Made by a program: the position numbers and the translations under genes | Notes under the pieces: generated by a model | Told to the model about the DNA's origin: nothing | Seen by the model: the letters and a program-made list of their open reading frames with translations, nothing else | Database searches by the model: none | Part shown: positions 3,225 through 51,411 of the stretch, piece after piece | Position numbering within the stretch: position 1 is the stretch's first letter | Layout: the number at the start of each line of letters is the position of its first letter | Assembly (NCBI RefSeq): GCF_020042345.1 | Contig: NZ_CP083387.1 | Location: forward strand, 4,154,001 to 4,218,000 | DNA length: 64,000 nt | Source of the DNA: Arachidicoccus terrestris | Lineage (GTDB): Bacteria > Bacteroidota > Bacteroidia > Chitinophagales > Chitinophagaceae | Direction of reading: 5' to 3'

Positions 3225-4742
3225 TTAACGCCTATTTCCTGTTTTACGATGCAGGGATTTGATGTAAAGCAGGCGGTAGCCTGCAATCAGTAAGATCAAT
3301 ACTGTCAGCACACCTATGACCGTACTGGTATCCTTCGCACTTTTTCCTGCCCAGCCCATGAATTCATGTTTATGAAAAAAAGCAAAGATCAATGCGTCCG
3401 TTTGTTTAAAGGTATCCCCTTTTTTAACAAGAGAGCCTGAGGTTATGTCAACGAATAAAGTCTTGCTGATGCCTGGCCCGTATGAAACTTGCCAGACCGG
3501 TAGTATCTTATCGGAGAAATTATATTGCTCCGTAAAGTGCGTCAGATGCCGAAGCTGTGCAGTGTCGATTCTGTAGGTTTTGGAATCCTTGCCCCCTAAG
3601 GCGGAGGCAGCCATTAATGCCGCCATTTGCTTTTCACTGTAGCCTTTTAAGAGCGTATCTTTTACGGTGTAATAATCGCTAAAAGAATGCTCCTTTACCT
3701 CTTGTTCAAGCATTAAATCTTTCGTCTTCGTCTGTCGGGCGTATGGTTCAGTTTGCAGCCATAATTGCCCTTTTAACTGAAACAGGCTAATGCCTGCAAT
3801 GGATCTTGCGTTTGGAAGCTCTGTCAGGGTTGCCGGCAAACTTTCGGGAAGTTCAGCCGTAATGATCATTTCGTTTGTGACGGGCCGTATCTTGAATGGT
3901 GATCTGCCGTTTTGCAATGCGTGAATCAGGCCACTGAATGCCCAGGCCAGTAAGAAGAATGCGCCGGTGATGGCGGTTAGACGGTGCAGTCTCCTGGCCT
4001 TTATAAGTGGATGCGTTTTGTGGCGTTTGGCTTTTGTGGCGAAGGACAGGTATATGCCCAGGCTGGCAGTGAACAGAGTCAGCAGAAGAATCATAGCGAT
4101 GATGCCGGCTTTTAGCCTGGGCAGCCTGTCCATCCAGGACCATGTGTGAAACCAGCCAAAAAACCGGTTGAAGGCGGCCCTGTGGCGATCCAGTGCGAAG
4201 GCGAAGCGACTGTTATGTGTATCAACATAAATGGCGATCCGATCCGGGCGTAAGAAGGATACTTTGTATACAGGTAAAAGCCGGTTGACATAGGTATACT
4301 GATCGGTGTAATCATTGATCAGCTTGATGGATTGAATGGGTATGCCTGGATGTTTTGTTTTTCCCAGCAGAAAATGCCTGGCAAGACTTGCGGCGTATAA
4401 TTGATCTCCATTCAATAATTCACGCCCGTTTTGTATATTAAAGTACCTGGCTGCTTTTGTGGGTGCCGGCAATATCTGATAATACCAGGAAGTGTCCATG
4501 TGTATCAGGTGCACCTGACAGGCCTCGGCGATGGCTGCCTGCTGCAACAGTCTTTTTAAAGGAAAAGCATGCTGAAATACCGCTACCGGTATGTTGATAT
4601 CAGGACCGGCCTGTGTGGTTATCTGCGGACGGACACTCGTCATTAACGGATGCATGAGCCCACTGACCGCCCAAAGAAAAATTGGGACACCGATACAGGT
4701 ACTTAAGACACGGTGCATGCGATATAGATTTTTCCTTTTCAT
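3225..4742 (-). CDS. PepSY-associated membrane protein
   Basis: Inner-membrane protein of about 505 residues with PepSY_TM architecture. There are membrane segments near the N-terminus (TCIGVPIFLWAVSGLMHP), in the middle (AGIIAMILLLTLFTASLGIYL and AITGAFFLLAWAFSGLIHAL) and at the C-terminus (VIGVLTVLILLIAGYRLLY), with large periplasmic PepSY-like loops between. Histidines at membrane edges (MHRVLS, SGLMHP, RLHRLT, SGLIHA) suit haem or metal chemistry. It lies directly downstream of a TonB receptor; a start at 4769 would overlap that gene, whereas the ATG at 4742 leaves a 10-bp gap and yields MKRKNLYRMHRVL, the usual N-terminus. Family knowledge links such pairs to iron-siderophore or copper reduction and uptake; the substrate here is inference. 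Confidence 0.85.
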   Translation of the reverse strand: MKRKNLYRMHRVLSTCIGVPIFLWAVSGLMHPLMTSVRPQITTQAGPDINIPVAVFQHAFPLKRLLQQAAIAEACQVHLIHMDTSWYYQILPAPTKAARYFNIQNGRELLNGDQLYAASLARHFLLGKTKHPGIPIQSIKLINDYTDQYTYVNRLLPVYKVSFLRPDRIAIYVDTHNSRFAFALDRHRAAFNRFFGWFHTWSWMDRLPRLKAGIIAMILLLTLFTASLGIYLSFATKAKRHKTHPLIKARRLHRLTAITGAFFLLAWAFSGLIHALQNGRSPFKIRPVTNEMIITAELPESLPATLTELPNARSIAGISLFQLKGQLWLQTEPYARQTKTKDLMLEQEVKEHSFSDYYTVKDTLLKGYSEKQMAALMAASALGGKDSKTYRIDTAQLRHLTHFTEQYNFSDKILPVWQVSYGPGISKTLFVDITSGSLVKKGDTFKQTDALIFAFFHKHEFMGWAGKSAKDTSTVIGVLTVLILLIAGYRLLYIKSLHRKTGNRR

Positions 4743-34069: not shown

Positions 34070-35659
34070 TTATGCGCTTCTTTTTTTACTGACAGCAGGC
34101 TTAGCGATACCCTTGTTTTTGCGGCTGGCCAGATATCTTTCTCTTAATACCTTCTGTACCGGAACTTTCCGGATTTTGCTTTCCAACCAGGACTGAATAT
34201 CCAGATACATGAACGATCGGGTTTCCAGTGAGTTTTTCTCTAACTTGTCCAGTTGTTCCTTAAGGGCTTTAAAGGCGGCCAGCATACGGCCCGGAGATAG
34301 TTTAAAAGATTTTTTAAGAAACACAAATATCGCTTCTTCTACTACGTTCAGGTTTTTCATATTAGCCATATAGCGATAAACAGATTTCAGCAGATATTCC
34401 AGAAGCTCCATATTGCCCAGTTCGTAATGGGCGATCAAGTGCAGCAGCCGGGCATAGCATTGCAGATCAGTTCTAAGATCAGATTTTTGATGAATAATCT
34501 TATTGAGGTAATCAATACAGCTTCCGTTATCGCCACTGCCAAAATACAAACAGGCAATTTTGTAATAAAAGACCAGTACCCGGTGCGTATCCAGATGGGT
34601 TTTGTATTCAGTGAGTTTTTCTTCAATCAATGGGATGAGTTCAATACCTTTCGTAAAGGTGCCTTCCAGAAAATGGCGATTAATCTCTGCTGTATACAGG
34701 TACATAAAAACCTGTATTTTAATGTTGACACTGCTATAGGCTATTGGCTTTTGACTAAAGGCTTCAAATACCTGCAATACCTCTACGAATTTATCATGAT
34801 TATTGGTGTCAAAATGTGCACTGAGCAGGTTGTGCATGGCCTTTACAAAAAGAACAGGTTCTACGTCCTGCATAGAAGGTTCTTTGATAAATAAATCGAA
34901 CCATTTCTGGGTATAACGATAGAACATGCGCAGGTCTTGCAAAATAAAATGATACCAGCAATGAGCCTGATAATAATGCATTTTAGCATAAAAGGTTAAA
35001 TGCTGTTCCTGTATTTCGGGTAAATTGGTCTTAAAGAACAGTTGGACGGCCAGAACATCCTTTTGATCTCTGGCATGTCCCATTTTAATATACCAGCCAT
35101 ACATTTGCAAAGCCAGATTGGATAGCTGATTTTGTTGGGTGATCTTACCCGTAACCTGATTGACCGCTTCAGAGAGTTGCTCAGCTCTGTCTTGCATACT
35201 TCTGGTGACATGCAATAACTCAATTTTCTTGGAGAGCTCCAGTGCCAGCAATAGTGATACATGCTGATGATAAAGGGTAGCCTGCTGCTTGATCTTTTCC
35301 AGTGTTTTCAGACTCTGGATATAAAGTCCCTTGCTGTATAGAATACGGGCATGAGCCATTTGCTCATTGAGCCACATTTCCAGATTACTGTCATCTTTCA
35401 GGAGTCTGAGTGACGAGAGTATCTGTCTGGACAGATGTGCCTTCATATTGGAAAGCTGCTGCTTTTTCAGGGACTTATTTTTACGCAGCAGCACCGTTTC
35501 GTCATATTCCTCCATTTTATCAAAAGCATCAAACAACTGCACGATCTTCAGGTCTTCCGCGCCTGAAGATCGCTTGATAAAAAGTTTAAAATGGCGTTTT
35601 TCACTCTTTTCCAGCGATTTAACCAGCTGAAAAAGCTCGTCATTTCTTCGATTGGGCAT
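34070..35659 (-). CDS. Conserved-looking helical-repeat protein of unknown function
   Basis: A cytosolic, almost wholly alpha-helical protein of about 529 residues without signal peptide or membrane segments. The N-terminal part is highly charged (MPNRRNDELFQLVKSLEKSEK, LLRKNKSLKKQQLSNMKAHL). The middle and C-terminal parts look like TPR-type helical repeats, for instance GLYIQSLKTLEKIKQQATLY and YFGSGDNGSCIDYLNKII. The tail is very basic (RYLASRKNKGIAKPAVSKKRSA). I cannot name a function. The style is familiar from unnamed proteins in Chitinophagaceae, but I have no proof. ATG 35659 is chosen over 35692, which adds a short hydrophobic lead. It is divergent from leuA. Confidence 0.75.
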   Translation of the reverse strand: MPNRRNDELFQLVKSLEKSEKRHFKLFIKRSSGAEDLKIVQLFDAFDKMEEYDETVLLRKNKSLKKQQLSNMKAHLSRQILSSLRLLKDDSNLEMWLNEQMAHARILYSKGLYIQSLKTLEKIKQQATLYHQHVSLLLALELSKKIELLHVTRSMQDRAEQLSEAVNQVTGKITQQNQLSNLALQMYGWYIKMGHARDQKDVLAVQLFFKTNLPEIQEQHLTFYAKMHYYQAHCWYHFILQDLRMFYRYTQKWFDLFIKEPSMQDVEPVLFVKAMHNLLSAHFDTNNHDKFVEVLQVFEAFSQKPIAYSSVNIKIQVFMYLYTAEINRHFLEGTFTKGIELIPLIEEKLTEYKTHLDTHRVLVFYYKIACLYFGSGDNGSCIDYLNKIIHQKSDLRTDLQCYARLLHLIAHYELGNMELLEYLLKSVYRYMANMKNLNVVEEAIFVFLKKSFKLSPGRMLAAFKALKEQLDKLEKNSLETRSFMYLDIQSWLESKIRKVPVQKVLRERYLASRKNKGIAKPAVSKKRSA

Positions 35660-35748
35660 AGTAATAATCAATTTACCAAACCCTTGATACATGCGGGTTT
35701 AGGCACTACAAAGCTACGTTTTTCACCGTAGATTCCGGTATAATTTGA

Positions 35749-35874: not shown

Positions 35875-37023
35875 ATGTCTGGACAAAAAATTGATATTTT
35901 TGACACAACCCTCAGAGATGGCGAACAAGTACCTGGTTGTAAACTCAATACAACTGAAAAAGTTAAATTGGCACTTGAGCTCGAATTGCTGGGTGTAGAT
36001 ATTATTGAAGCAGGTTTTCCAATTTCCAGCCCTGGTGATTTTCAATCAGTTGAGCAGATTGCAAAAGCAGTGAAGGAGGCGACCGTCTGCGGTCTGACCA
36101 GAGCCGTGCAAAAAGATATTGAAGTAGCCGCCGAAGCGCTGAAACCCGCCAGGAGACCCCGGATTCATACCGGAATTGGTTCTTCTGATAACCACATCAA
36201 ATATAAATTCAATACCACCCGCGAGAAGATCGTGGAACGTGCTGTCGCAGCCGTAAAGCTGGCCCGCAACCTGGTGCCGGATGTTGAATTTTATGCTGAA
36301 GACGCCGGACGGGCTGACATTCAGTTTCTGGCACAGCTGATTGAGGCTGTAATTGCAGCCGGGGCTACTGTTGTCAATATCCCCGATACAACTGGTTTTT
36401 GCCTGCCGCATCAGTATGCGGAAAAGATCGGCTATCTGGTAAACAATGTAAAAGGGATTGAGCATGCGACTATTTCCTGTCATTGTCATAATGACCTGGG
36501 GCTGGCTACCGCCAATTCCCTGGCAGGCGTGATTGCCGGTGCCCGTCAGATTGAATGTACCATCAATGGCATCGGAGAGAGAGCCGGTAATACTTCTTTG
36601 GAAGAAGTGGCTATGGCGATCAAAAAGCATCCGGAACTGGGCCTGTATACAAATATTGAAAGCACCCGTCTGCATGGTTTGAGCAAGCAGGTTTCTGACA
36701 CGATGCGTATGCCCGTGCAGCCCAATAAAGCCATTGTGGGCGACAACGCTTTTGCCCATTCTTCCGGTATACATCAGGATGGTTTCTTGAAGGAGGCGAC
36801 TACCTATGAAATCATTGATCCGCTGGAAGTAGGCGCGGACATTTCAAAAATTGTTCTTACGGCCAGAAGCGGCAGAAGTGCTTTGGCATATCGCTTCAAA
36901 AAACTGGGCCATGACTTTACTCGGGACCAGGTAGATGTTCTCTATGAAAGGTTCCTGATTGTGGCCGATGAGAAAAAAGAAGTGACGGATGAAGATCTGG
37001 CTGCTTTAGCAAGTGCGCTTTAA
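35875..37023 (+). CDS. leuA: 2-isopropylmalate synthase, short form without the regulatory domain
   Basis: First committed step to leucine: condenses acetyl-CoA and 2-oxoisovalerate. Only 382 residues, against about 510 for the E. coli enzyme. The HMGL-like TIM barrel is complete: [13 protein letters not shown] at the N-terminus, the metal-binding [18 protein letters not shown] and [17 protein letters not shown], then a subdomain with [10 protein letters not shown] and [14 protein letters not shown]. The protein ends where the LeuA dimerisation and leucine-binding domain would begin. So feedback inhibition by leucine, if any, must act differently. Homocitrate or citramalate synthase activity is less likely, given leuCD and leuB follow. 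Confidence 0.93.
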
Positions 37024-41512: not shown

Positions 41513-42634
41513 ATGAAAAAGAATATTACGGTTATTCTGGGTGATGGCATAGGACCGGAAGTGACGGAACAATCTATCAAGATTTTAAACGCTGTTGGCG
41601 AGCAGTTTGGTCATGAGTTTACCTATGATTATCAGTTAATGGGTGCTGTCGCCATCGATGAGACAGGCAATCCCCTGCCGGACGCAACCATTGAATCCGC
41701 CCTGAAAAGTGATGCGGTGCTCTTTGGCGCCATAGGACATCCTAAATATGACAATGACCCCTCGGCCAAAGTACGCCCAGAGCAAGGTCTGTTAAAGTTA
41801 CGGAAGTCTTTACAGTTATATGCCAATATCCGCCCTGTGATCACCTACCCTGCGCTCAATCATCTGTCTCCCCTGAAGCCGGAGAAAATGGAGGGTGTGG
41901 ACTTTGTGATCTTTAGAGAACTTACCGGCGGTATTTATTTTGGAGAGAAAAAGGTAAACGAAGAGAAAACAGAAGCTTCTGATCTGTGCAGCTATACTAA
42001 ACCCGAAATTGAGCGGATCGCTCACCTGGCTTTCCAGTATGCCGGTCGGCCAGAGCGCAGGAAGAAACTGACACTGGTTGATAAAGCCAATGTACTGGAA
42101 ACTTCGCGCCTTTGGCGTAAAGTGGTGCAGGATATCGCACCGTCTTATCCGGACATCAAAGTAGATTATATGTTTGTTGACAATGCTTCAATGCAGATCA
42201 TTGTCAATCCCAAGCAGTTCGATGTCGTGCTGACGGAGAATATGTTCGGTGATATTATCAGTGATGAGGCCAGCGTACTGAGTGGTTCCCTGGGACTGTT
42301 GCCTTCTTCTTCTGTAGGAACCGGCACTGTTTTATTTGAACCGATTCATGGTTCTTATCCACAGGCCGCGGGCAAAGATATCGCTAATCCTATTGGCTCC
42401 ATACTTAGTGCGGCTATGATGCTGGAACATTTTGGCATGAATGAGGAAGCGGCGCTGGTCAGAAACGCTGTCGCCTGGACATTGGCCCAGGGATTTGTAA
42501 GCCAGGATATTGACGCCGTCAATAATTATGGTACCAGCGTGATCGGAGATTTGATCAAAGATTTTATCGAACAGAAAATTCCAGCAGATGTCAATAAGAA
42601 ATCTGTTGAATTAGGTAAATCTACGATTATCTAA
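41513..42634 (+). CDS. leuB: 3-isopropylmalate dehydrogenase
   Basis: Oxidises 3-isopropylmalate to 2-oxoisocaproate with NAD. 373 residues, normal. Signatures: VILGDGIGPEVTEQSIK, LLKLRKSLQLYANIRPV, the substrate loop FRELTGGIYFGEK, VDNASMQIIVNPKQFDVV and the metal-binding TENMFGDIISDEASVLSGSLGLLPS. It ends the leu operon and is followed by a terminator. Confidence 0.97.
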   Translation: MKKNITVILGDGIGPEVTEQSIKILNAVGEQFGHEFTYDYQLMGAVAIDETGNPLPDATIESALKSDAVLFGAIGHPKYDNDPSAKVRPEQGLLKLRKSLQLYANIRPVITYPALNHLSPLKPEKMEGVDFVIFRELTGGIYFGEKKVNEEKTEASDLCSYTKPEIERIAHLAFQYAGRPERRKKLTLVDKANVLETSRLWRKVVQDIAPSYPDIKVDYMFVDNASMQIIVNPKQFDVVLTENMFGDIISDEASVLSGSLGLLPSSSVGTGTVLFEPIHGSYPQAAGKDIANPIGSILSAAMMLEHFGMNEEAALVRNAVAWTLAQGFVSQDIDAVNNYGTSVIGDLIKDFIEQKIPADVNKKSVELGKSTII

Positions 42635-42675: not shown

Positions 42676-42706
42676 GTTCTTTGTTTTGATTTTTTTTCTA
42701 CATTTG
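42674..42706 (+). promoter_or_regulatory. Candidate promoter of the ilv leader
   Basis: TACATTTG at 42699-42706 matches the -7 box exactly. A TTG at 42674-42676 is 22 bp upstream as a weak -33 element. Transcription would start about 42713, roughly 25 nt before the leader peptide. Confidence 0.5.
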
Positions 42707-42737: not shown

Positions 42738-42851
42738 TTGAAAACAAGTGTAAAAAATATAATCCCGGTCATCGCCCTAAATAATGTCATTATTGTGGTG
42801 GTCGTCATTATTTCCTTTTTCCGAGGAAGTGGTAATGGATTTGTTTTGTGA
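42738..42851 (+). CDS. ilv operon leader peptide, Ile/Val/Leu-rich
   Basis: A 37-codon reading frame beginning with TTG (42738-42740) and ending with TGA. It is not a protein of function but a translation sensor. It opens with KTSVKN, then residues 8-25 read IIPVIALNNVIIVVVVII, in which 14 of 18 are Ile, Val or Leu, and ends SFFRGSGNGFVL. The upstream in-frame stop at 42723-42725 leaves only CTG or TTG as possible starts, which explains why gene finders would miss it. Ribosome stalling at these codons would allow the antiterminator (42825-42833 with 42878-42886) to form, so that ilvDBN-C is expressed when branched-chain amino acids are scarce. Confidence 0.85.
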   Translation: MKTSVKNIIPVIALNNVIIVVVVIISFFRGSGNGFVL

Positions 42852-42910
42852 CACACGAGCAAAATAAAATATTGAAAACCACTTCCCTATCAGGAGGTGG
42901 TTTTTTCTTT
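42825..42910 (+). promoter_or_regulatory. ilv attenuator: antiterminator and terminator elements
   Basis: Three segments compete. GGAAGTGGT (42825-42833, inside leader codons 30-32) pairs perfectly over 9 bp with ACCACTTCC (42878-42886) to form the antiterminator. The same ACCACTTCC, extended as AAAACCACTTCC from 42875, pairs with GGAGGTGGTTTT (42893-42904) over 12 bp with one G-U to form the terminator, with a 6-nt loop and a U-run ending near 42906. The leader stop at 42849-42851 is 26 bp before the terminator stem. Confidence 0.85.
42875..42906 (+). terminator. Attenuator terminator upstream of ilvD
   Basis: Twelve-base-pair stem with one G-U pair, 6-nt loop and a T6 tail, as described for the attenuator. 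It lies 80 bp before the ilvD start and would stop transcription when the leader peptide is translated without stalling. Confidence 0.85.
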
Positions 42911-42986
42911 CAGGCCGGGTTTGATAACAGCGTTAAGCATATTCACGTAAAATATATTATTCAAAAAAGTTGTAAAGCATTAAAAA

Positions 42987-44699
42987 ATGGAGCCAAATCT
43001 CAATAAATATTCTAAAAACCTTACCCAGGATGAAACGCAACCTGGTGCCCAGGCGATGTACTATGCCATTGGTATGAAAGATGAAGACTTAGACAAAGCG
43101 CAAGTCGGTATCGCTGCCATGGGATGGGATGGTAATCCCTGTAATATGCATTTAAATGATTTAGCAACAGACGTCAGGGAGAGTGTAAATGCTTCCGGCC
43201 TTGTCGGGCTGCGGTTTTATACCATCGGGGTTAGTGATGGAATGGCCAATGGAACAGATGGCATGCGCTATAGTCTGGTTAGCCGTGATGTTATCGCCGA
43301 TAGTATTGAGACGAATGCAGGGGCACAGTATTATGACGGCCTTATTACCATCCCTGGATGTGATAAGAACATGCCAGGCTCTATAATGGCAATGGCCAGG
43401 CTGAACCGGCCGTCTCTGATGCTTTACGGTGGAACGATTGCGCCGGGGCACTATAAAGGTGAAGATTTAAATATCGTTTCTGCATTTGAAGCCTTGGGTC
43501 AGAAAATTGCCGGTAATCTGGATGAAGCAGATTTTAAAGGAATTGTCCAACATGCTTGTCCGGGTGCAGGTGCCTGTGGGGGCATGTATACCGCTAATAC
43601 GATGGCCAGCGCCATTGAGGCACTGGGTATGAGCCTGCCCTACTCTTCCTCTAATCCTGCATTGAGTGAAGAAAAGAAAAAAGAATGTGAAGCTGCTGGC
43701 GCTGCTATCCGGCTGCTGCTGGAAAAAGATATTAAGCCTTCCGATATTATGACGCGTAAGGCCTTTGAAAATGCCATGACCGTTATTATGGCACTGGGCG
43801 GCAGCACCAATGCGGTCCTACATATGATCGCTATTGCCAGAACGGCTAAAGTACCTTTGACGCAAGACGATTTTCAGCTGATCAGTGATAAAGTACCTAT
43901 GCTGGCTGACTTTAAACCCAGCGGTAAATACCTGATGGAAGATCTGCACCAGTATGGCGGAACACCTGCGGTGATGAAGTATCTGCTTTCTAAAGGATTG
44001 TTACACGGTGACTGTCTGACTGTTACCGGTAAGACGGTTGCAGAGAACCTGGCTGACGCGCCGGATCTGGATTTTGAAAAACAGGATATTATCCATTCTT
44101 TGGACAATCCGATCAAAGCTACAGGGCACTTACAAATACTCTATGGTAACCTGGCAGAAGATGGCAGTGTGGCCAAGATCACCGGTAAGGAAGGTGAAAG
44201 ATTTGAAGGTACCGCCAGGGTATTTGACGGTGAAGCTCATTTGATTGAAGGCCTTGCCTCTAAAAGAGTACATGCAGGTGATGTAGTGGTCATCCGTTAC
44301 AGTGGACCGGTAGGTGCTCCTGGCATGCCTGAAATGCTGAAGCCGACGGGCGCAATTATCGGTGCTGGTCTGGGTAAATCAGTGGCACTGATAACAGACG
44401 GTCGTTTCAGTGGCGGTACGCACGGATTTGTCGTAGGGCATATTACGCCCGAAGCCCATAAAGGCGGTCTGATCGCTCTTGTAGAAGATGATGATATTAT
44501 TGAAATTGATGCGGTGAATAATAAAATTGTATTAAAAGTCGCTGAAGAGGAGATTGAGCGTCGACGCAAAGCATGGAAACAACCACCTTTAAAGGTCTCT
44601 TCAGGGGTGTTGTATAAATACGCTAATACTGTGGCCTCCGCTGCATATGGTTGTGTAACTGATGAGCTGGAGGAGGATCTTAAAAGAGACAATAAATAG
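42987..44699 (+). CDS. ilvD: Dihydroxy-acid dehydratase
   Basis: Iron-sulfur enzyme that dehydrates dihydroxy acids to the 2-keto acids of valine and isoleucine. 570 residues, normal. Cluster cysteines are in [11 protein letters not shown] and [18 protein letters not shown]; the C-terminal half carries [13 protein letters not shown] and [20 protein letters not shown]. First gene of the ilv operon, directly downstream of the attenuator. Confidence 0.97.
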
Positions 44700-44734: not shown

Positions 44735-46474
44735 ATGGATACGCTTGATGTAAAAGAAGCCGCCGCACCCCAGACGGAAAAATCCACAACACTTAACGGC
44801 AGTCAGGCGCTGCTGGAAGGATTGCTTGTTGAAGGGGTAACAACAATATTTGGCTATCCGGGTGGAGCGATTATGCCCATCTATGACGCCTTATATGACT
44901 ATCATGACAAGCTGGAGCATATACTGGTACGCCACGAGCAGGGTGGCATACACGCCGCGCAGGGCTATGCCCGCAGTTCTGGTAAAGTGGGGGTGGTCTT
45001 TGCAACAAGCGGTCCGGGTGCAACGAATCTGATCACAGGTATCGCCGATGCGATGATCGACAGCACTCCACTGGTATGTATTACAGGACAGGTATTTGCA
45101 CACTTGTTGGGTACGGATGCCTTTCAGGAAACAGATGTCGTGAATATTACGGCGCCGGTTACAAAATGGAATTATCAGGTAACGGATGCAACTGAGATTC
45201 CCGGTGTGCTTGCCAAGGCCTTTCATATTGCCCGAACTGGCAGACCCGGTCCGGTACTGATTGACATTACAAAAAATGCACAGATCCAAAAGTTTGAATA
45301 CGCAGGTTATGAGCCTTGTAACCATATCCGTAGTTACCGTCCTGCACCTAAAGTACGCAAATCCTATATAGAACAGGCTGCCAGGCTGATCAATGAGGCA
45401 AAGAAGCCTTTTGTTCTATTCGGTCAAGGCGTGATTCTGGGAGAAGCAGAAAAAGAATTTAAGGCTTTTATTGAAAAAACGGGCCTGCCTGCCGCCTGGA
45501 CTATTCTGGGAGAAAGTGCGATTCCATCTGATCATTACCTCAATGTTGGCATGTTGGGCATGCATGGAAACTATGCGCCCAATGTACTGACCAACGAGTG
45601 TGATGTGTTGATCGCTGTAGGCATGCGTTTTGACGACCGGGTTACCGGACGCCTGGATAAATATGCCAAACAGGCAAAAATCGTTCACCTCGATATTGAT
45701 CCGGCAGAGATTGATAAAAACGTACAGAGCACAGTTCCGGTTTGGGGCGATTGTAAAGAAACCCTGCCAATGATTACGGCACTTCTGGAAGAAAAAGACC
45801 ACAGGCAGTGGTTGGCCAAATTTCGTGAACTGGAACAGCAGGAAATTAAAGAAGTCATCGAGCCTGAATTAAATCCCGCAGGAGACGTGATGTCGATGGG
45901 CGAAGTGATCAAAGTACTCAATGAACTGACTGGTGGTGAAGCCATTATTGTTACTGACGTTGGACAGCATCAGATGGTGGCCTGTCGTTATGCTGATTTC
46001 AAGCAGTCTCGCAGCAATATAACTTCCGGCGGCCTGGGTACCATGGGCTTTGGTCTGCCGGCAGCGATCGGAGCCAAATATGGTGCACCAGACAGGACTG
46101 TTGTCGCTATATGCGGCGACGGTGGCCTGCAGATGACCATCCAGGAATTTGGAACAATTATGCAGTTTGGAGCGGATGTTAAGACGCTGATATTGAATAA
46201 TCATTTTCTGGGAATGGTGCGTCAGTGGCAACAACTCTTTAACGATAAACGATACTCTTTTGTAAATATTACTTCTCCGGATTTTGTCAAAGTAGCGGAA
46301 GGTTACGGTATTGCCGGCAGGAGTATTGATCAGCGTGCCGATCTGCGCACGGCACTCAAAGAAATGCTGGATCACAAAGGGGCATATGTTCTGGAAGTAA
46401 TGGTGGGTAAAGAAAATAATGTATTCCCGATGGTTCCACAAGGATGCAGTGTAAGTGAAATTCGCTTAAAATAA
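44735..46474 (+). CDS. ilvB: Acetolactate synthase large (catalytic) subunit
   Basis: ThDP enzyme of 579 residues that makes acetolactate and acetohydroxybutyrate from pyruvate. ThDP site: HEQGGIHAAQGYARSSGKVG with the catalytic glutamate, and GDGGLQMTIQEFGT followed by NNHFLGMVRQWQ. The FAD-binding region is in GMRFDDRVTGR. The N-terminal ~20 residues before LEGLLVEGV are a polar extension. It lies 35 bp after ilvD. Confidence 0.97.
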   Translation: MDTLDVKEAAAPQTEKSTTLNGSQALLEGLLVEGVTTIFGYPGGAIMPIYDALYDYHDKLEHILVRHEQGGIHAAQGYARSSGKVGVVFATSGPGATNLITGIADAMIDSTPLVCITGQVFAHLLGTDAFQETDVVNITAPVTKWNYQVTDATEIPGVLAKAFHIARTGRPGPVLIDITKNAQIQKFEYAGYEPCNHIRSYRPAPKVRKSYIEQAARLINEAKKPFVLFGQGVILGEAEKEFKAFIEKTGLPAAWTILGESAIPSDHYLNVGMLGMHGNYAPNVLTNECDVLIAVGMRFDDRVTGRLDKYAKQAKIVHLDIDPAEIDKNVQSTVPVWGDCKETLPMITALLEEKDHRQWLAKFRELEQQEIKEVIEPELNPAGDVMSMGEVIKVLNELTGGEAIIVTDVGQHQMVACRYADFKQSRSNITSGGLGTMGFGLPAAIGAKYGAPDRTVVAICGDGGLQMTIQEFGTIMQFGADVKTLILNNHFLGMVRQWQQLFNDKRYSFVNITSPDFVKVAEGYGIAGRSIDQRADLRTALKEMLDHKGAYVLEVMVGKENNVFPMVPQGCSVSEIRLK

Positions 46475-46500
46475 CTGCAGGCAATAAAGATTTGTAAGAA

Positions 46501-46529
46501 AGCAGCATCAAAACAGCTCGCATGCTGCT
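46501..46529 (+). repeat. Hairpin between ilvB and ilvN
   Basis: AGCAGCAT (46501-46508) is inversely repeated as ATGCTGCT (46522-46529), an 8-bp stem with a 13-nt loop. It includes an in-frame ATG at 46522 that could start ilvN; the true start at 46546 lies downstream and outside the stem. Confidence 0.4.
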
Positions 46530-46545
46530 CATAAAAAAGAAAACA

Positions 46546-47193
46546 ATGAAAAATCAAGCATCCATCAAATATGCACCGGCCGCAGACAGCAGCAGTGCTC
46601 CACATCAGAAAAAAGAATTTACAATTTCTGTGTTTACGGAAAACCAGATCGGCCTGCTCAATCGCATTGCCATTATGTTTTCCAGGCGTAAGATTAATGT
46701 AGAAAGCCTGAATGTCTCTCCCACTGAGATTGAAGGTATCTCACGCTTTACCATTGTCATTACAGAAGTGGAGGACGTTGTCAGTAAACTCAACCGACAG
46801 ATAGAAAAGCAGGTTGAGGTGCTTAAATCGTACTACAATGTCAATGAAGATATTGTCTGGCAGGAACTGGCCATGTATAAGGTTCCTACCAATGTGATCT
46901 CTGAAAAAGCTAAAGTAGAACGGCTGCTTCGTGAATACGGCGCACAGGCAGTTGCCATACGCAGCGACTATACGGTTTTTGAGACGGTTGGTCACCGGGA
47001 AGAAACCGAAGGCCTGCTGAATGCGTTGGCACCTTATGGCCTCATTGAGTTCGTGCGTAGCGCCCGGGTTGCCATTATTAAGGATAGTGAAGGATTCCAT
47101 GCTAAATTAAAAGAATTTGAACAACACGAACCTTCTCAGGAAGTCATTGAGAATGAGTACCTGGATAAAAGAGATGACGTGTTCACCATGTAA
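46546..47193 (+). CDS. ilvN: Acetolactate synthase small (regulatory) subunit
   Basis: Regulatory partner of IlvB that binds valine. About 215 residues, longer than the ~95 of E. coli IlvN and similar to the IlvH class. The first ACT domain (FTISVFTENQIGLLNRIAIMFSRRKINVESL) covers about residues 27-100, and the second, ALS-specific domain (YGAQAVAIRSDYTVFETVG) follows. An in-frame ATG at 46522 exists but lies in a hairpin; ATG 46546 gives MKNQASIKYAPAADSSS. Confidence 0.93.
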   Translation: MKNQASIKYAPAADSSSAPHQKKEFTISVFTENQIGLLNRIAIMFSRRKINVESLNVSPTEIEGISRFTIVITEVEDVVSKLNRQIEKQVEVLKSYYNVNEDIVWQELAMYKVPTNVISEKAKVERLLREYGAQAVAIRSDYTVFETVGHREETEGLLNALAPYGLIEFVRSARVAIIKDSEGFHAKLKEFEQHEPSQEVIENEYLDKRDDVFTM

Positions 47194-47210
47194 AAAAATA
47201 AATCAGACCT

Positions 47211-47729
47211 ATGCAAACAGATATAACACTTGCTTATCTACGGAAAACCAGACAGTTATTTCTCGGGATGATGGATGACCTTTCGTTAGGGCAGCTCAAT
47301 CAGATTCCTGAAGGCTTTAATAACAATATTATCTGGAATCTGGGACATATAGCAGTAAGTACACCCGGACTTTGCTATATTCGCAGTCAGGTTAAGCCTG
47401 AGACGGAATTGCCGTTTCCTGGTCGTTTTGGAAAAGGGAGTCGTCCGGAAGTGGAAGCCACGGCTGAGGAGGTGGAGGAGATTAAAAAATTCTTGGTCAG
47501 CAGTCTGGATCAGATTGAGACTGATATCCATGCCGGCGTGTTTACAGAGCTGTTTCCATTCGCGACGGATACGTATCAGATTCCGATGGATAGTATTGAA
47601 AATACACTGAATTGCTGCCTGGCCCATGAAAATCTGCACCTGGGAATTGCTAAGGCGCAGAAGGCAGTGATATTAAATGCCGGGAAGGTTAAAAAAGAAC
47701 AGAGCGAAAGCAAGATATCTTTAAATTAA
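47211..47729 (+). CDS. DinB-like protein within the ilv operon
   Basis: Soluble four-helix-bundle protein of 172 residues, DinB/YfiT type. The expected three metal histidines are placed at WNLGHIAVS and in AHENLHLGIA. DinB-family enzymes in some bacteria are thiol-dependent transferases; many are uncharacterised. It lies 17 bp after ilvN and about 120 bp before ilvC, so it is co-transcribed. A link to branched-chain metabolism is unproved. Confidence 0.8.
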   Translation: MQTDITLAYLRKTRQLFLGMMDDLSLGQLNQIPEGFNNNIIWNLGHIAVSTPGLCYIRSQVKPETELPFPGRFGKGSRPEVEATAEEVEEIKKFLVSSLDQIETDIHAGVFTELFPFATDTYQIPMDSIENTLNCCLAHENLHLGIAKAQKAVILNAGKVKKEQSESKISLN

Positions 47730-47850
47730 ACAATGTCGGACGTATAACCGCGTAAATAAAGGCTCCAATTAAGGGATGAGCCCAGTGACGGGTAAACAAA
47801 AATTTTTCGAAACAAAAATTAGATCAGAAAAAAACAAAAAACTAGAAACA

Positions 47851-48897
47851 ATGGCAAAATTGAACTTTGGCGGTGTTGAAGAAAATGTGGTAACCCGCGA
47901 AGAATTTCCTCTGGCGAAAGCGCAAGAGGTGCTGAAAAATGAAACAGTAGCCGTTATCGGTTATGGAGTACAAGGTCCTGGCCAGGCACTGAATCAAAGA
48001 GATAATGGTATCAACGTAATCGTCGGTCAGAGAAAAGACTCTAAAAGCTGGGATAAAGCTGTGGCTGATGGATTTGTTCCTGGTGAGACCCTTTTTGATA
48101 TTGAGACTGCACTCGAAAAAGGAACTATTATCTGTTATTTGTTAAGTGATGCTGCCCAGATCGAACTGTGGCCTACTGTAAAAAAACACCTGACTGCAGG
48201 CAAAGCCTTATATTTCTCTCACGGCTTTGGCATTACTTTCAATGAGCAGACCGGTATTGTTCCACCGGCTGATGTAGATGTATTTCTGGTAGCGCCTAAA
48301 GGATCCGGTACTTCACTGCGCCGTATGTTCCTGCAAGGCCGCGGATTGAACAGCTCCTATGCCATTTATCAGGACGCCACCGGTAAAGCCTATGAAAGAG
48401 TGATCGCATTGGGGATCGCAGTAGGAAGTGGATACTTGTTTGAAACAGATTTCAAAAAAGAAGTATTAAGCGATCTTACCGGAGAAAGAGGCACACTCAT
48501 GGGCTGTATCCAGGGTATTTTTGCTGCACAGTATCAGGTACTGCGCGAAAAAGGCCATATGCCTTCGGAAGCCTTCAATGAAACTGTAGAAGAGTTAACG
48601 CAATCTCTGATGCCATTAGTCGCAGAAAACGGCATGGACTGGATGTATGCCAACTGTTCTACTACGGCTCAACGTGGTGCTTTGGATTGGTGGAAAAAGT
48701 TCCGCGATGCTACTTTGCCCGTATTCAATGATCTATATGAGAGCGTTGCAACTGGTAAAGAATCCCAGCGTTCTATTGATTCCAACAGTCAGAAAGATTA
48801 TCGTGAGAAACTGGATGCAGAATTAAAAGAACTGCGTGAAAGTGAATTATGGCAGGCTGGTAAGACCGTAAGAAGTCTGAGGCCTGAAAATAACTAA
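47851..48897 (+). CDS. ilvC: Ketol-acid reductoisomerase (NADP-type, class I)
   Basis: Isomerises and reduces acetolactate to dihydroxyisovalerate. About 348 residues, the short class I form. The Rossmann motif is AVIGYGVQGPGQALNQRDNG; the catalytic metal-binding region has KKEVLSDLTGERGTLMG and later YANCSTTAQRGALDW. An in-frame ATG at 47776 would add 25 basic residues; ATG 47851 gives MAKLNFGGVEENVVTREE, preferred. It ends the ilv operon. Confidence 0.97.
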   Translation: MAKLNFGGVEENVVTREEFPLAKAQEVLKNETVAVIGYGVQGPGQALNQRDNGINVIVGQRKDSKSWDKAVADGFVPGETLFDIETALEKGTIICYLLSDAAQIELWPTVKKHLTAGKALYFSHGFGITFNEQTGIVPPADVDVFLVAPKGSGTSLRRMFLQGRGLNSSYAIYQDATGKAYERVIALGIAVGSGYLFETDFKKEVLSDLTGERGTLMGCIQGIFAAQYQVLREKGHMPSEAFNETVEELTQSLMPLVAENGMDWMYANCSTTAQRGALDWWKKFRDATLPVFNDLYESVATGKESQRSIDSNSQKDYREKLDAELKELRESELWQAGKTVRSLRPENN

Positions 48898-48921
48898 TGG
48901 CTAATTAATAGTTTATCATAG

Positions 48922-48977
48922 AAAGGCTGCCCGACAGATCAAATATTATATTGATTTCAATGACGGCAGCCTTTTTT
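48922..48977 (+). terminator. Terminator of the ilv operon
   Basis: AAAGGCTGCC (48922-48931) pairs perfectly with GGCAGCCTTT (48965-48974). The loop contains a smaller AT-rich hairpin, and a T6 run follows. It separates ilvC from ilvA. Confidence 0.8.
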
Positions 48978-48988
48978 GATTATAAGAA

Positions 48989-49018
48989 CTGGCAACACAC
49001 TGAATGTATTATTGCCAG
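48989..49018 (+). repeat. Inverted repeat upstream of ilvA
   Basis: CTGGCAA and TTGCCAG form a 7-bp inverted repeat with a 16-nt spacer, about 70 bp before the ilvA start. No U-run or leader peptide is visible. It may be an operator or mRNA hairpin. Confidence 0.3.
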
Positions 49019-49085
49019 AACGAAAGCAGAAAGCCATACGACTATTTGCGATAAAAGAAGCAGAACATATTTAATGTAAAATATA

Positions 49086-50318
49086 ATGCAAATTGATTTT
49101 GAAGGGGCAGCCGCCAGATTAAAGTCTGTTGTCAACAGAACGCCATTACAGCTAAATGAAGGTCTGTCCAAAATATATGATTGTCAGGTATATCTGAAAA
49201 GAGAAGATCTGCAAAGAGTACGTTCCTATAAGATTCGTGGTGCCTACAATATGATTAGCACGCTGCCCGAAGAAATACGAGCCCAGGGAGTGGTTTGCGC
49301 CAGTGCGGGTAACCATGCACAGGGCTTTGCTTTTAGCTGTAACACGCTAAAAATTAAAGGAGTGGTTTTTATGCCCAGCATCACTCCTAAACAAAAAATT
49401 ACACAGACAAGAATGTTCGGCGGACCAGACCTTGAGATTATTCTTACAGGAGATACTTTTGATGACTGTGCCGCAGCCGCCAGAATATATACCCAGGAAC
49501 ATCATATGACCTTTATTCCGCCTTTTAATCATGAAAAAATCATTGAGGGTCAGGGAACAGTCGCTATAGAGATCCTGGAAGATCTCCAGGATATTGATTA
49601 TGTATTTGTGCCTGTTGGCGGAGGCGGACTGGCAGGTGGTGTGGGGTTATATTTTAAAGAACATTCTCCGGAAACCAAAATCATTGGCGCTGAGCCTGAA
49701 GGAGCGGCTTCAATGACTGCTGCGCTTCAGGCAGGCGAACCCGTAACTCTGGATACAATTAACCGCTTTGTTGACGGTGCTGCTGTTAAGCGGATCGGTG
49801 ATCTAAACCTGATAGCCTTTCAGGAGATTAAAGGAAAACCCACACTTGTGCCGGAAGGGAGGATCTGTTCTACCATTCTGGATCTTTACAACAGAGATGC
49901 GATTGTGGCTGAGCCAGCCGGTGCTTTATCGATCGCGGCGCTAGAAGATTTTAAAGAAGAAATTAAGGGCAAGAAAGTCGTATGTATTGTCAGTGGCAGT
50001 AACAATGATATCGATCGTATGCCGGAAATCAAAGAACTTTCTTTACAATATGAAGGCCTGAAGCATTATTTTCTGATAGGGTTCTCTCAGCGACCAGGTG
50101 CACTTAGAGAATTCCTGAATCTGGTGCTGGGCCCGACCGATGATATTGCCCGATTTGAGTATCTGCATAAGACCAATAAAGAGCACGGCACGGCACTTGT
50201 GGGCATTGAGCTATTGAATAAGGAAGATTATGTACCCCTTATCCAAAGAATGCAGGAACATAATATCAATTATACAGAGCTCAATAAGGATGATACGCTG
50301 TTTAACTTCCTGGTCTGA
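49086..50318 (+). CDS. ilvA: Threonine ammonia-lyase (threonine dehydratase)
   Basis: Converts threonine to 2-oxobutyrate, the start of isoleucine synthesis. 410 residues. The PLP lysine lies in RSYKIRGAYNMI, the phosphate loop is PVGGGGLAGGVGLY, and ASAGNHAQGFAF is conserved. The C-terminal ~85 residues form a regulatory ACT-like domain (FLIGFSQRPGALREFLNLVL), which suggests isoleucine feedback. One regulatory domain is present instead of the two found in E. coli IlvA. Confidence 0.96.
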   Translation: MQIDFEGAAARLKSVVNRTPLQLNEGLSKIYDCQVYLKREDLQRVRSYKIRGAYNMISTLPEEIRAQGVVCASAGNHAQGFAFSCNTLKIKGVVFMPSITPKQKITQTRMFGGPDLEIILTGDTFDDCAAAARIYTQEHHMTFIPPFNHEKIIEGQGTVAIEILEDLQDIDYVFVPVGGGGLAGGVGLYFKEHSPETKIIGAEPEGAASMTAALQAGEPVTLDTINRFVDGAAVKRIGDLNLIAFQEIKGKPTLVPEGRICSTILDLYNRDAIVAEPAGALSIAALEDFKEEIKGKKVVCIVSGSNNDIDRMPEIKELSLQYEGLKHYFLIGFSQRPGALREFLNLVLGPTDDIARFEYLHKTNKEHGTALVGIELLNKEDYVPLIQRMQEHNINYTELNKDDTLFNFLV

Positions 50319-51027: not shown

Positions 51028-51044
51028 CCTCATTGTAAAAAATA

Positions 51045-51411
51045 CTATAAACCTCGTAAGCCGGATTCTGTTTCTACACTATCATTTATCTGCCCAAAGC
51101 ATTACTGCTTTGGTGTAGCTGTCTACCCCATCGGGTTGCCTCGTTACAAAAACAAGGCATCGAACGGGCCGCTCTCAACCCCGACTATATGTGACATTGC
51201 AGCGCTTAAGGCTTACCCCGCAGGGCTATTACTAACCCTGCCCGTACGCTCTTACCATACGTTTTCACCCTTACCTGAATCCAGGCGGTTATTTTCTGTG
51301 GTGCTGGCTGTGATCAGTTTACTGACCCCCGGCATTTCACCGGTAAGCTGCCCTATGCTGTCCGGACTTTCCTCGACATGTAAATCATGCCGCGATAGCG
51401 CGGGTTTATAG
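51045..51411 (-). ncRNA. rnpB: RNase P RNA (bacterial type A)
   Basis: Catalytic RNA that trims the 5' ends of tRNA precursors. On the minus strand the hallmark GAGGAAAGTCCGGAC is near the 5' end, and near the 3' end the sequence includes GAATCCGGCTTACGAGG. The ends pair as P1: CTATAAACC at 51403-51411 with GGTTTATAG at 51045-51053. The length, about 367 nt, is normal. A -7 box (TACCTTTG) sits 6 bp before the 5' end, and a terminator hairpin follows the 3' end. Protein-like frames in this region are not genes. Confidence 0.95.

Follow-up and report, generated by a model that had tools for sequence, protein, structure and literature searches.

A probable isoleucine- and valine-sensing transcription attenuator before ilvD in Arachidicoccus terrestris and its relatives in the Bacteroidota

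What controls the branched-chain amino acid genes of Arachidicoccus terrestris is the question raised by a leader element on the plus strand between leuB, which ends at position 42634, and ilvD, which starts at position 42987 of the window (the whole stretch of 64,000 nucleotides of contig NZ_CP083387.1 that was analysed). The first downstream gene, ilvD (42987–44699, plus strand), encodes dihydroxy-acid dehydratase (NCBIfam TIGR00110, above cut-off). It is followed on the same strand by ilvB (44735–46474), an ilvN-like gene (46522–47193), a gene for a DinB_2 family protein that stands within the run of ilv genes between the ilvN-like gene and ilvC (47211–47729), ilvC (47776–48897) and ilvA (49086–50318). 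These five genes (44735–50318, plus strand) probably form the rest of the ilvD operon and are probably cotranscribed with it. The names leuA, leuC, leuB, ilvD, ilvB, ilvC and ilvA were taken from NCBIfam, with ilvB, ilvC and ilvA likewise above cut-off; the ilvN-like gene missed the NCBIfam cut-off, with a score of 112.3 against 119, and was named from Pfam (ALS_ss_C, above cut-off). By these gene names, the element precedes branched-chain biosynthesis genes, the location expected of an attenuator.

The C-terminal domain of LeuA binds leucine. The leuA product of the window (35875–37023; 382 aa) covers only approximately the first 380 of the 494–516 positions of bacterial LeuA models and, judged from this alignment, seems to be without its C-terminal domain. 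Elsewhere in the window, a bacterial RNase P RNA of class A was found on the minus strand (51041–51411; Rfam RF00010, 235.7 bits).

We consider it very probable that the element is a classical ribosome-mediated transcription attenuator before ilvD, sensing isoleucine and valine. The anatomy of the sequence, its conservation, covariation and a computed switch point were observed; that the promoter is used, the leader translated, the ribosome stalled and transcription terminated, and which amino acids are the signal, is deduced from them.

The leader frame runs from a TTG start through 37 codons to a TGA stop codon at 42849–42851 (42738–42851, plus strand), and a homologous frame is present in the five other members of the genus. 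It encodes the peptide LKTSVKNIIPVIALNNVIIVVVVIISFFRGSGNGFVL, in which 14 isoleucine, valine or leucine residues were counted in residues 8–25; the coordinates and counts of this frame in a first-pass annotation of the sequence hold. Codons 17–25 (42786–42812, plus strand), reading V I I V V V V I I, are the putative control codons. The frame, the translation of which is predicted, is thus rich in codons for the product of the operon.

Downstream of these codons, the window contains an antiterminator and an intrinsic terminator which are mutually exclusive. Segment 2 (GGAAGTGGT, 42825–42833, plus strand) forms the 5' arm of the outer antiterminator helix within codons 30–32 and is the exact complement of segment 3 (ACCACTTCC, 42878–42886, plus strand), which serves both as the 3' antiterminator arm and as part of the 5' terminator arm; this is the 9-bp perfect pairing that the annotation had described. 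In the fold, the intrinsic terminator hairpin (42874–42906, plus strand) pairs 42874–42886 with 42893–42905 around a loop at 42887–42892 and is followed by a U-run to approximately 42906. Its stem has 13 pairs, two of them G-U, while the 12-pair stem noticed earlier contains one G-U. The antiterminator consists of 9 + 4 outer pairs and 10 inner pairs, with a folding energy of -21.3 to -21.5 kcal/mol versus -17.8 kcal/mol for the terminator. Two further structures had been missed: an inner antiterminator helix beside the stop codon (42840–42868, plus strand; 42840–42849 with 42859–42868), the 5' arm of which ends at 42849, where the stop codon begins, and a 1:2 (protector) hairpin within the Ile/Val codons (42802–42838, plus strand; arms 42802–42817 and 42823–42838; -12.0 kcal/mol). 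The fold of 42800–42912 had an energy of -36.3 kcal/mol (z -3.73) and that of 42820–42888 an energy of -21.5 kcal/mol (z -4.72); in both cases, none of 200 shuffles folded as stably. Sequence and folds agree with the annotation that frame, antiterminator and terminator lie in the right order before ilvD.

The effect of the ribosome was computed with a folding model in which the RNA was exposed to 42888, the ribosome footprint was unpaired, the RNA behind the ribosome was kept and pairing across the ribosome was either allowed or forbidden; the model is one of equilibrium, without kinetics and without a shuffled control. The probability of pairing between segments 2 and 3, P(2:3), was 0.87–0.98 with the A-site at codons 16–25 (0.96–0.98 at codons 17–24 and 0.87 at codon 25), 0.42–0.54 at codon 26 and 0.00 at codons 27–37. 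At the stop codon it was 0.26 or 0.00, depending on the version of the model. Codons 11–15, three of which are V, I and L, gave 0.18–0.47. With the ribosome at codons 1–9, P(2:3) was 0.95–0.98, and without a ribosome the antiterminator formed at 0.97 despite the 1:2 hairpin of -12.0 kcal/mol, which weighs against the attenuator reading; what distinguishes the Ile/Val run is therefore the fall that follows it, high values being found elsewhere as well. By this equilibrium computation, the antiterminator is favoured with the ribosome on the control codons and the terminator with the ribosome at the stop codon.

The annotation had also remarked that a ribosome at the stop codon may not completely cover segment 2, given its position upstream. 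This worry is eased by two observations. The window has two extra codons (6 nt) beside segment 2 which are missing in the five genus relatives, so that segment 2 lies 6 nt nearer to the stop codon in these relatives, and since the inner helix touches the stop codon, a ribosome there should melt this helix even without covering 42825–42833. What remains of it is the P(2:3) of 0.26 at the stop codon in one version of the model.

The element would then work as follows. RNA polymerase would start just past the promoter box at 42699, with ribosomes following it along the leader frame from 42738. When Ile-tRNA or Val-tRNA is scarce, the ribosome would stall at codons 17–25, covering segment 1 and leaving segment 2 free; segments 2 and 3 (42825–42833 with 42878–42886) could then pair, with the inner helix continuing the pairing, and the terminator would be blocked, so that ilvD and the later genes would be transcribed. 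When both Ile-tRNA and Val-tRNA are plentiful, the ribosome would reach the stop codon and cover or melt segment 2 and the inner helix, upon which segment 3 would pair with segment 4 and transcription would end near 42906.

The promoter box in this scheme had been overlooked in the annotation. The putative promoter, TTTG ... TACATTTG (42680–42706, plus strand), has a -7 box of the type TAnnTTTG at 42699–42706, which is of the Bacteroidota type and begins 39 nt before the TTG; TACATTTG is present in all six members of the genus. Within a stretch of 120 nt upstream of the leader, TAnnTTTG was found in 21 of 35 related loci (aligned as described below) versus 2 of 35 on the opposite strand of the same stretch, and downstream of the terminator in none of the 35. 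Taking as start the last ATG at least 20 codons before the stop codon, the box begins 14–43 nt before the ATG in the 22 loci having both; in two of these, an additional box lies at 94 and 119 nt. If transcription is estimated to start approximately a dozen bases past the beginning of the box, several leaders would have a 5' UTR of no more than a few bases. PMC7366714, the source of the promoter consensus used here, reports that approximately 3.7% of the 5' UTRs of B. thetaiotaomicron are shorter than 10 nt and that classical Shine-Dalgarno sequences are missing from the mRNAs of the phylum; it also mentions long 5' UTRs with sORFs reminiscent of leader peptides and describes post-transcriptional control in Bacteroidota as little known. 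The element offers a testable amino-acid switch in a phylum without classical Shine-Dalgarno mRNAs. The TTG of the window is an ATG at the same position in the other five genus genomes, and the TTG start may be weak.

Frame and hairpins were found before ilvD in all six genus genomes examined. A loose detector, the input of which omitted L007–L009, matched 47 of 86 ilvD loci and gave no hit in the other 39. The leader of L002 was missed by this detector and added by eye. Together with 31 of the 47 matched loci and the leaders nearest to ilvD in L069, L076 and L079, it makes up an alignment of 35 rows. Five loose-detector loci, L030, L074, L075, L087 and L089, which we take to resemble the end of the ATP synthase epsilon gene, were left out of the alignment, as were L050, L053, L060, L065, L068, L072, L084 and L085. 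Two rows were counted although misplaced, i.e. that of the window (beside segment 2, with its 6-nt insertion) and that of L017 (in segment 2). Because a terminator and I/L/V codons were required by the detector from which most rows come, both features are present by construction. The alignment of relatives, which had been proposed as a check, kept the leader frame and its Ile/Val codons; the position before ilvD or ilvE is likewise conserved among relatives.

When the folding model was applied to the 35 loci, counting any pairing of segment 3 with RNA well upstream, the maximum within the Ile/Val run was at least 0.6 in all 35 loci, and the mean was 0.78 in the run versus 0.13 at the stop codon. 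At the stop codon the value was below 0.3 in 29 of the 35 loci, and in 30 when either of two alternative footprints was used. Values of at least 0.3 were found in six loci: the window (0.64), L003 (0.37) and L005 (0.65), which all belong to the genus, and L014, L018 and L020.

Most genus rows of the alignment carry GGAAGTGG and CCACTTCC, and most family rows carry GGAGG-GG and CCGCCTCC. In the terminator, 89.6% of the cells were paired and 33 cells had changed on both sides (0 of 500 shuffles), and the covariation score was 0.348 versus 0.133 for shuffled alignments (0 of 500) and at most 0.149 for slid ones. Changes on both sides occurred in 5 of its 8 pairs, which was reached by 40 of 500 shuffles. 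In the antiterminator, 82.9% of the cells were paired (0 of 500 shuffles), 7 cells had changed on both sides and the score was 0.143 versus 0.099 shuffled (0 of 500) and at most 0.103 slid. The number of antiterminator pairs changed on both sides (2; 280 of 500 shuffles) and that of further pair types (8; 420 of 500) showed no excess over shuffles. At one antiterminator pair, 28 of the 35 rows have G-C and 5 have A-U; all five A-U rows are from the genus and may represent a single event. The three pairs of the second antiterminator helix fail in 10–11 of the 35 rows. For the four-pair core of the 1:2 hairpin, 90.7% pairing (37 of 500 shuffles) and a score of 0.245 (23 of 500) were found in the 35 relatives. 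As the shuffles ignore the kinship of the rows, none of these shuffle counts is a probability. Segments 3 and 4 covary strongly, and segments 2 with 3 and 1 with 2 covary weakly. Compensatory changes, which the annotation had suggested looking for, are therefore clear in the terminator arms and present but weak in segment 2, where few changes on both sides occurred. The combination that the annotation had named as refuting, relatives with neither covariation nor a conserved frame, was not observed. Its proposal that a Bacteroidota ilv operon could be controlled by attenuation in response to Ile and Val, a matter of inference as far as regulation itself is concerned, gains support from the conserved frame, the position and the covariation.

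Three other readings of the element were weighed. The hairpin lies between leuB and ilvD and could be a mere terminator of the upstream leu genes, with the Ile/Val frame ahead of it by chance; terminators with a U-run alone are common, the window containing 9 terminator-like places on one strand and 8 on the other. However, a promoter-like box stands between leuB and the hairpin, and frame, segment 2 and position recur among relatives. Scanning both strands of the window for terminators with an I/L/V-rich frame ahead gave five rows; the element scored 10/12 I/L/V, and the other four rows (three places) had 7/12, equal to the threshold. A strict detector yielded 27 sense rows in 22 of 89 loci (837,730 bases), one of which, in L074, looks false, versus no antisense rows, and the loose detector gave 52 hits versus 4 on the opposite strand. 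A chance association of this kind is hardly credible. We attach equally little credence to the idea that the product of the frame is a small, hydrophobic membrane protein active in itself. The leader peptide is hydrophobic, and the absence of any matching Pfam family is neutral here, but the RNA pairs fall inside its codons and its composition is unusual. In the last 20 codons of 35 leaders, I + V made up 49.1% and L 5.4%, with D or E at none of 700 positions, versus 21.5% I + V and 16.5% L in 70 hydrophobic stretches of 20 residues from six long open frames of the window, some of which are not genes. ATT accounted for 161 of 194 Ile codons in the leaders versus 70 of 168 in these stretches. 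Since the rows were picked for I/L/V codons, the one informative feature is how these split into Ile/Val and Leu; unlike part of the I/L/V share, the scarcity of Leu is no product of this selection. As a feature of the sequence, the split speaks for isoleucine and valine as the sensed amino acids and disfavours a membrane peptide.

Independence of translation, as in a riboswitch, a T-box or a protein-bound leader, would fit the mutually exclusive hairpins and the antiterminator that the model folds without a ribosome, and Rfam at low stringency gave 19 rows at the element. All 19, including PyrR (25.8 bits, E 0.14, gathering 54) as well as Phe_leader (20.6 bits, E 0.39, gathering 55), were below gathering score and were rejected. 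At gathering score, no Rfam family matched the element, whether in the window or in the 10 related loci that were scanned; the lone hit in these loci, Flavo-1, lay elsewhere in L079, off the element. Nearly all conserved columns, moreover, fall in codons, segments 2–4 and the U-run, with one in the spacer. We regard a mechanism independent of translation as very unlikely and retain ribosome-mediated attenuation.

A covariance model, R1, was built from the 35 loci, and it matches 82 of 147 genomes of the family at E ≤ 1e-5. At E ≤ 0.01 it matched 103 of 147 genomes, some perhaps of the same species as training loci and those near E 0.01 doubtful, and 44 of 147 had no match. R1 found one place in each of the six genus genomes; as all six were in its training set, the new information is only that a second place is absent. 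Among the best-scoring 30 family loci, leuB adjoins the match in 29 and ilvD lies on the other side within the locus in 28. In the class, 12 of 295 genomes matched at E ≤ 1e-4, of which nine do not belong to the family. A survey of the class for ilvD (E ≤ 1e-200) found it in 41 of 197 genomes (42 places), and 40 of the 42 regions were taken, those of the own genome and G273 being omitted. Hits were obtained in 22 of the 40 regions in sense versus 2 in antisense, and in 6 versus 0 when an exact complement of the antiterminator close to the stop codon was also required; the survey is suggestive only, since L142 and L135 are seemingly chance hits and five f13 regions seemingly contain another hydrophobic peptide. 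In a number of relatives, an ilvE-type gene lies between the attenuator and ilvD; by similarity, this gene is present in 12 of 14 loci, with an attenuator hit ahead of it in 11; its name was checked on one locus, L120 (NCBIfam). In the genome of the window, the sole match to the ilvE-type gene has 38% identity and is far away. In genome G009, the gene behind the R1 match (L114) has 32% identity to the protein adjoining leuA in the window (34070–35692, minus strand), and the region upstream of the ilvD of this genome (L131) gave no detector hit; possibly the element moved.

In E. coli, the attenuators of ilvGMEDA (ilvL) and ilvBN (ivbL) combine a leader peptide rich in branched-chain residues with alternative hairpins. 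The element shares with them this type of leader, the alternative hairpins and the ilv genes, a likeness by anatomy. Different from these attenuators, the leaders in the Chitinophagaceae have mostly Ile and Val codons with little Leu, and the window has a TTG start and a promoter box of the Bacteroidota type. The abstract of Vitreschak et al. 2004 is said to name the Bacteroidetes/Chlorobi among predicted attenuators, reportedly of the same kind and in the same phylum. In the open literature, no paper on ilv attenuators of Bacteroidota was found, most subscription papers lying outside the search. PMC10272879 describes the ilvB-II, ilvB-OMG (reported in various phyla) and Leptospira ilvB motifs, with a uORF rich in branched-chain codons; going by this description, they have the same type of uORF, come from comparative work outside E. 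coli and stand before ilvB, whereas the present loci stand before ilvD or ilvE. The kind of attenuator is long known, although it has received little study in this phylum, many members of which carry it; less ordinary are its wide spread without a matching Rfam family, the start of the leader close behind the promoter box and the occurrence of two attenuators in series before ilvE.

Such series were seen in four Chryseobacterium loci (L060, at 3600–3990, L068, L084 and L085), each with two terminators behind I/L/V-rich frames, followed by ilvE, ilvD, ilvB, ilvN, ilvC and ilvA; for the first attenuator of L084 the detector took another frame, and the Ile/Val frame was identified by eye with the help of related loci. 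The TACATTTG box of L060 and L085 ends 4 nt before the first ATG. In Flavobacterium L065 (3560–3960) one attenuator was found by the loose and the second by the strict detector, and the class locus L170 had two sense hits. Tandem attenuators that respond to ATP and proline are described for Salmonella mgtCBR in PMC3641672; two leader frames in series are likewise present in the Chryseobacterium and Flavobacterium relatives, not in the window, but both frames of these relatives are Ile/Val-rich. We can imagine, while leaning slightly against it, an old and phylum-wide Bacteroidota system, the attenuator of the window included, in which near-leaderless, non-Shine-Dalgarno uORFs would sense Ile and Val; in tandem before ilvE in some Flavobacteriales, read-through would be the product of two decisions and give a steeper response to starvation.

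Leaders of other composition were also encountered. In Pedobacter L069, L072, L076 and L079, a Leu-rich leader with a conserved terminator precedes ilvE at approximately 3.1–3.9 kb, and L069, L076 and L079 also have an Ile/Val leader directly before ilvD. The R1 match in L130, one of the nine outside the family, is a Thr/Ile-rich leader (..MTINNTTIITIITTGKYFGGK..) with a terminator near 1540 on the minus strand; it precedes an aspartate kinase-like gene with AA_kinase and ACT domains, without ilv genes, and resembles a thr attenuator.
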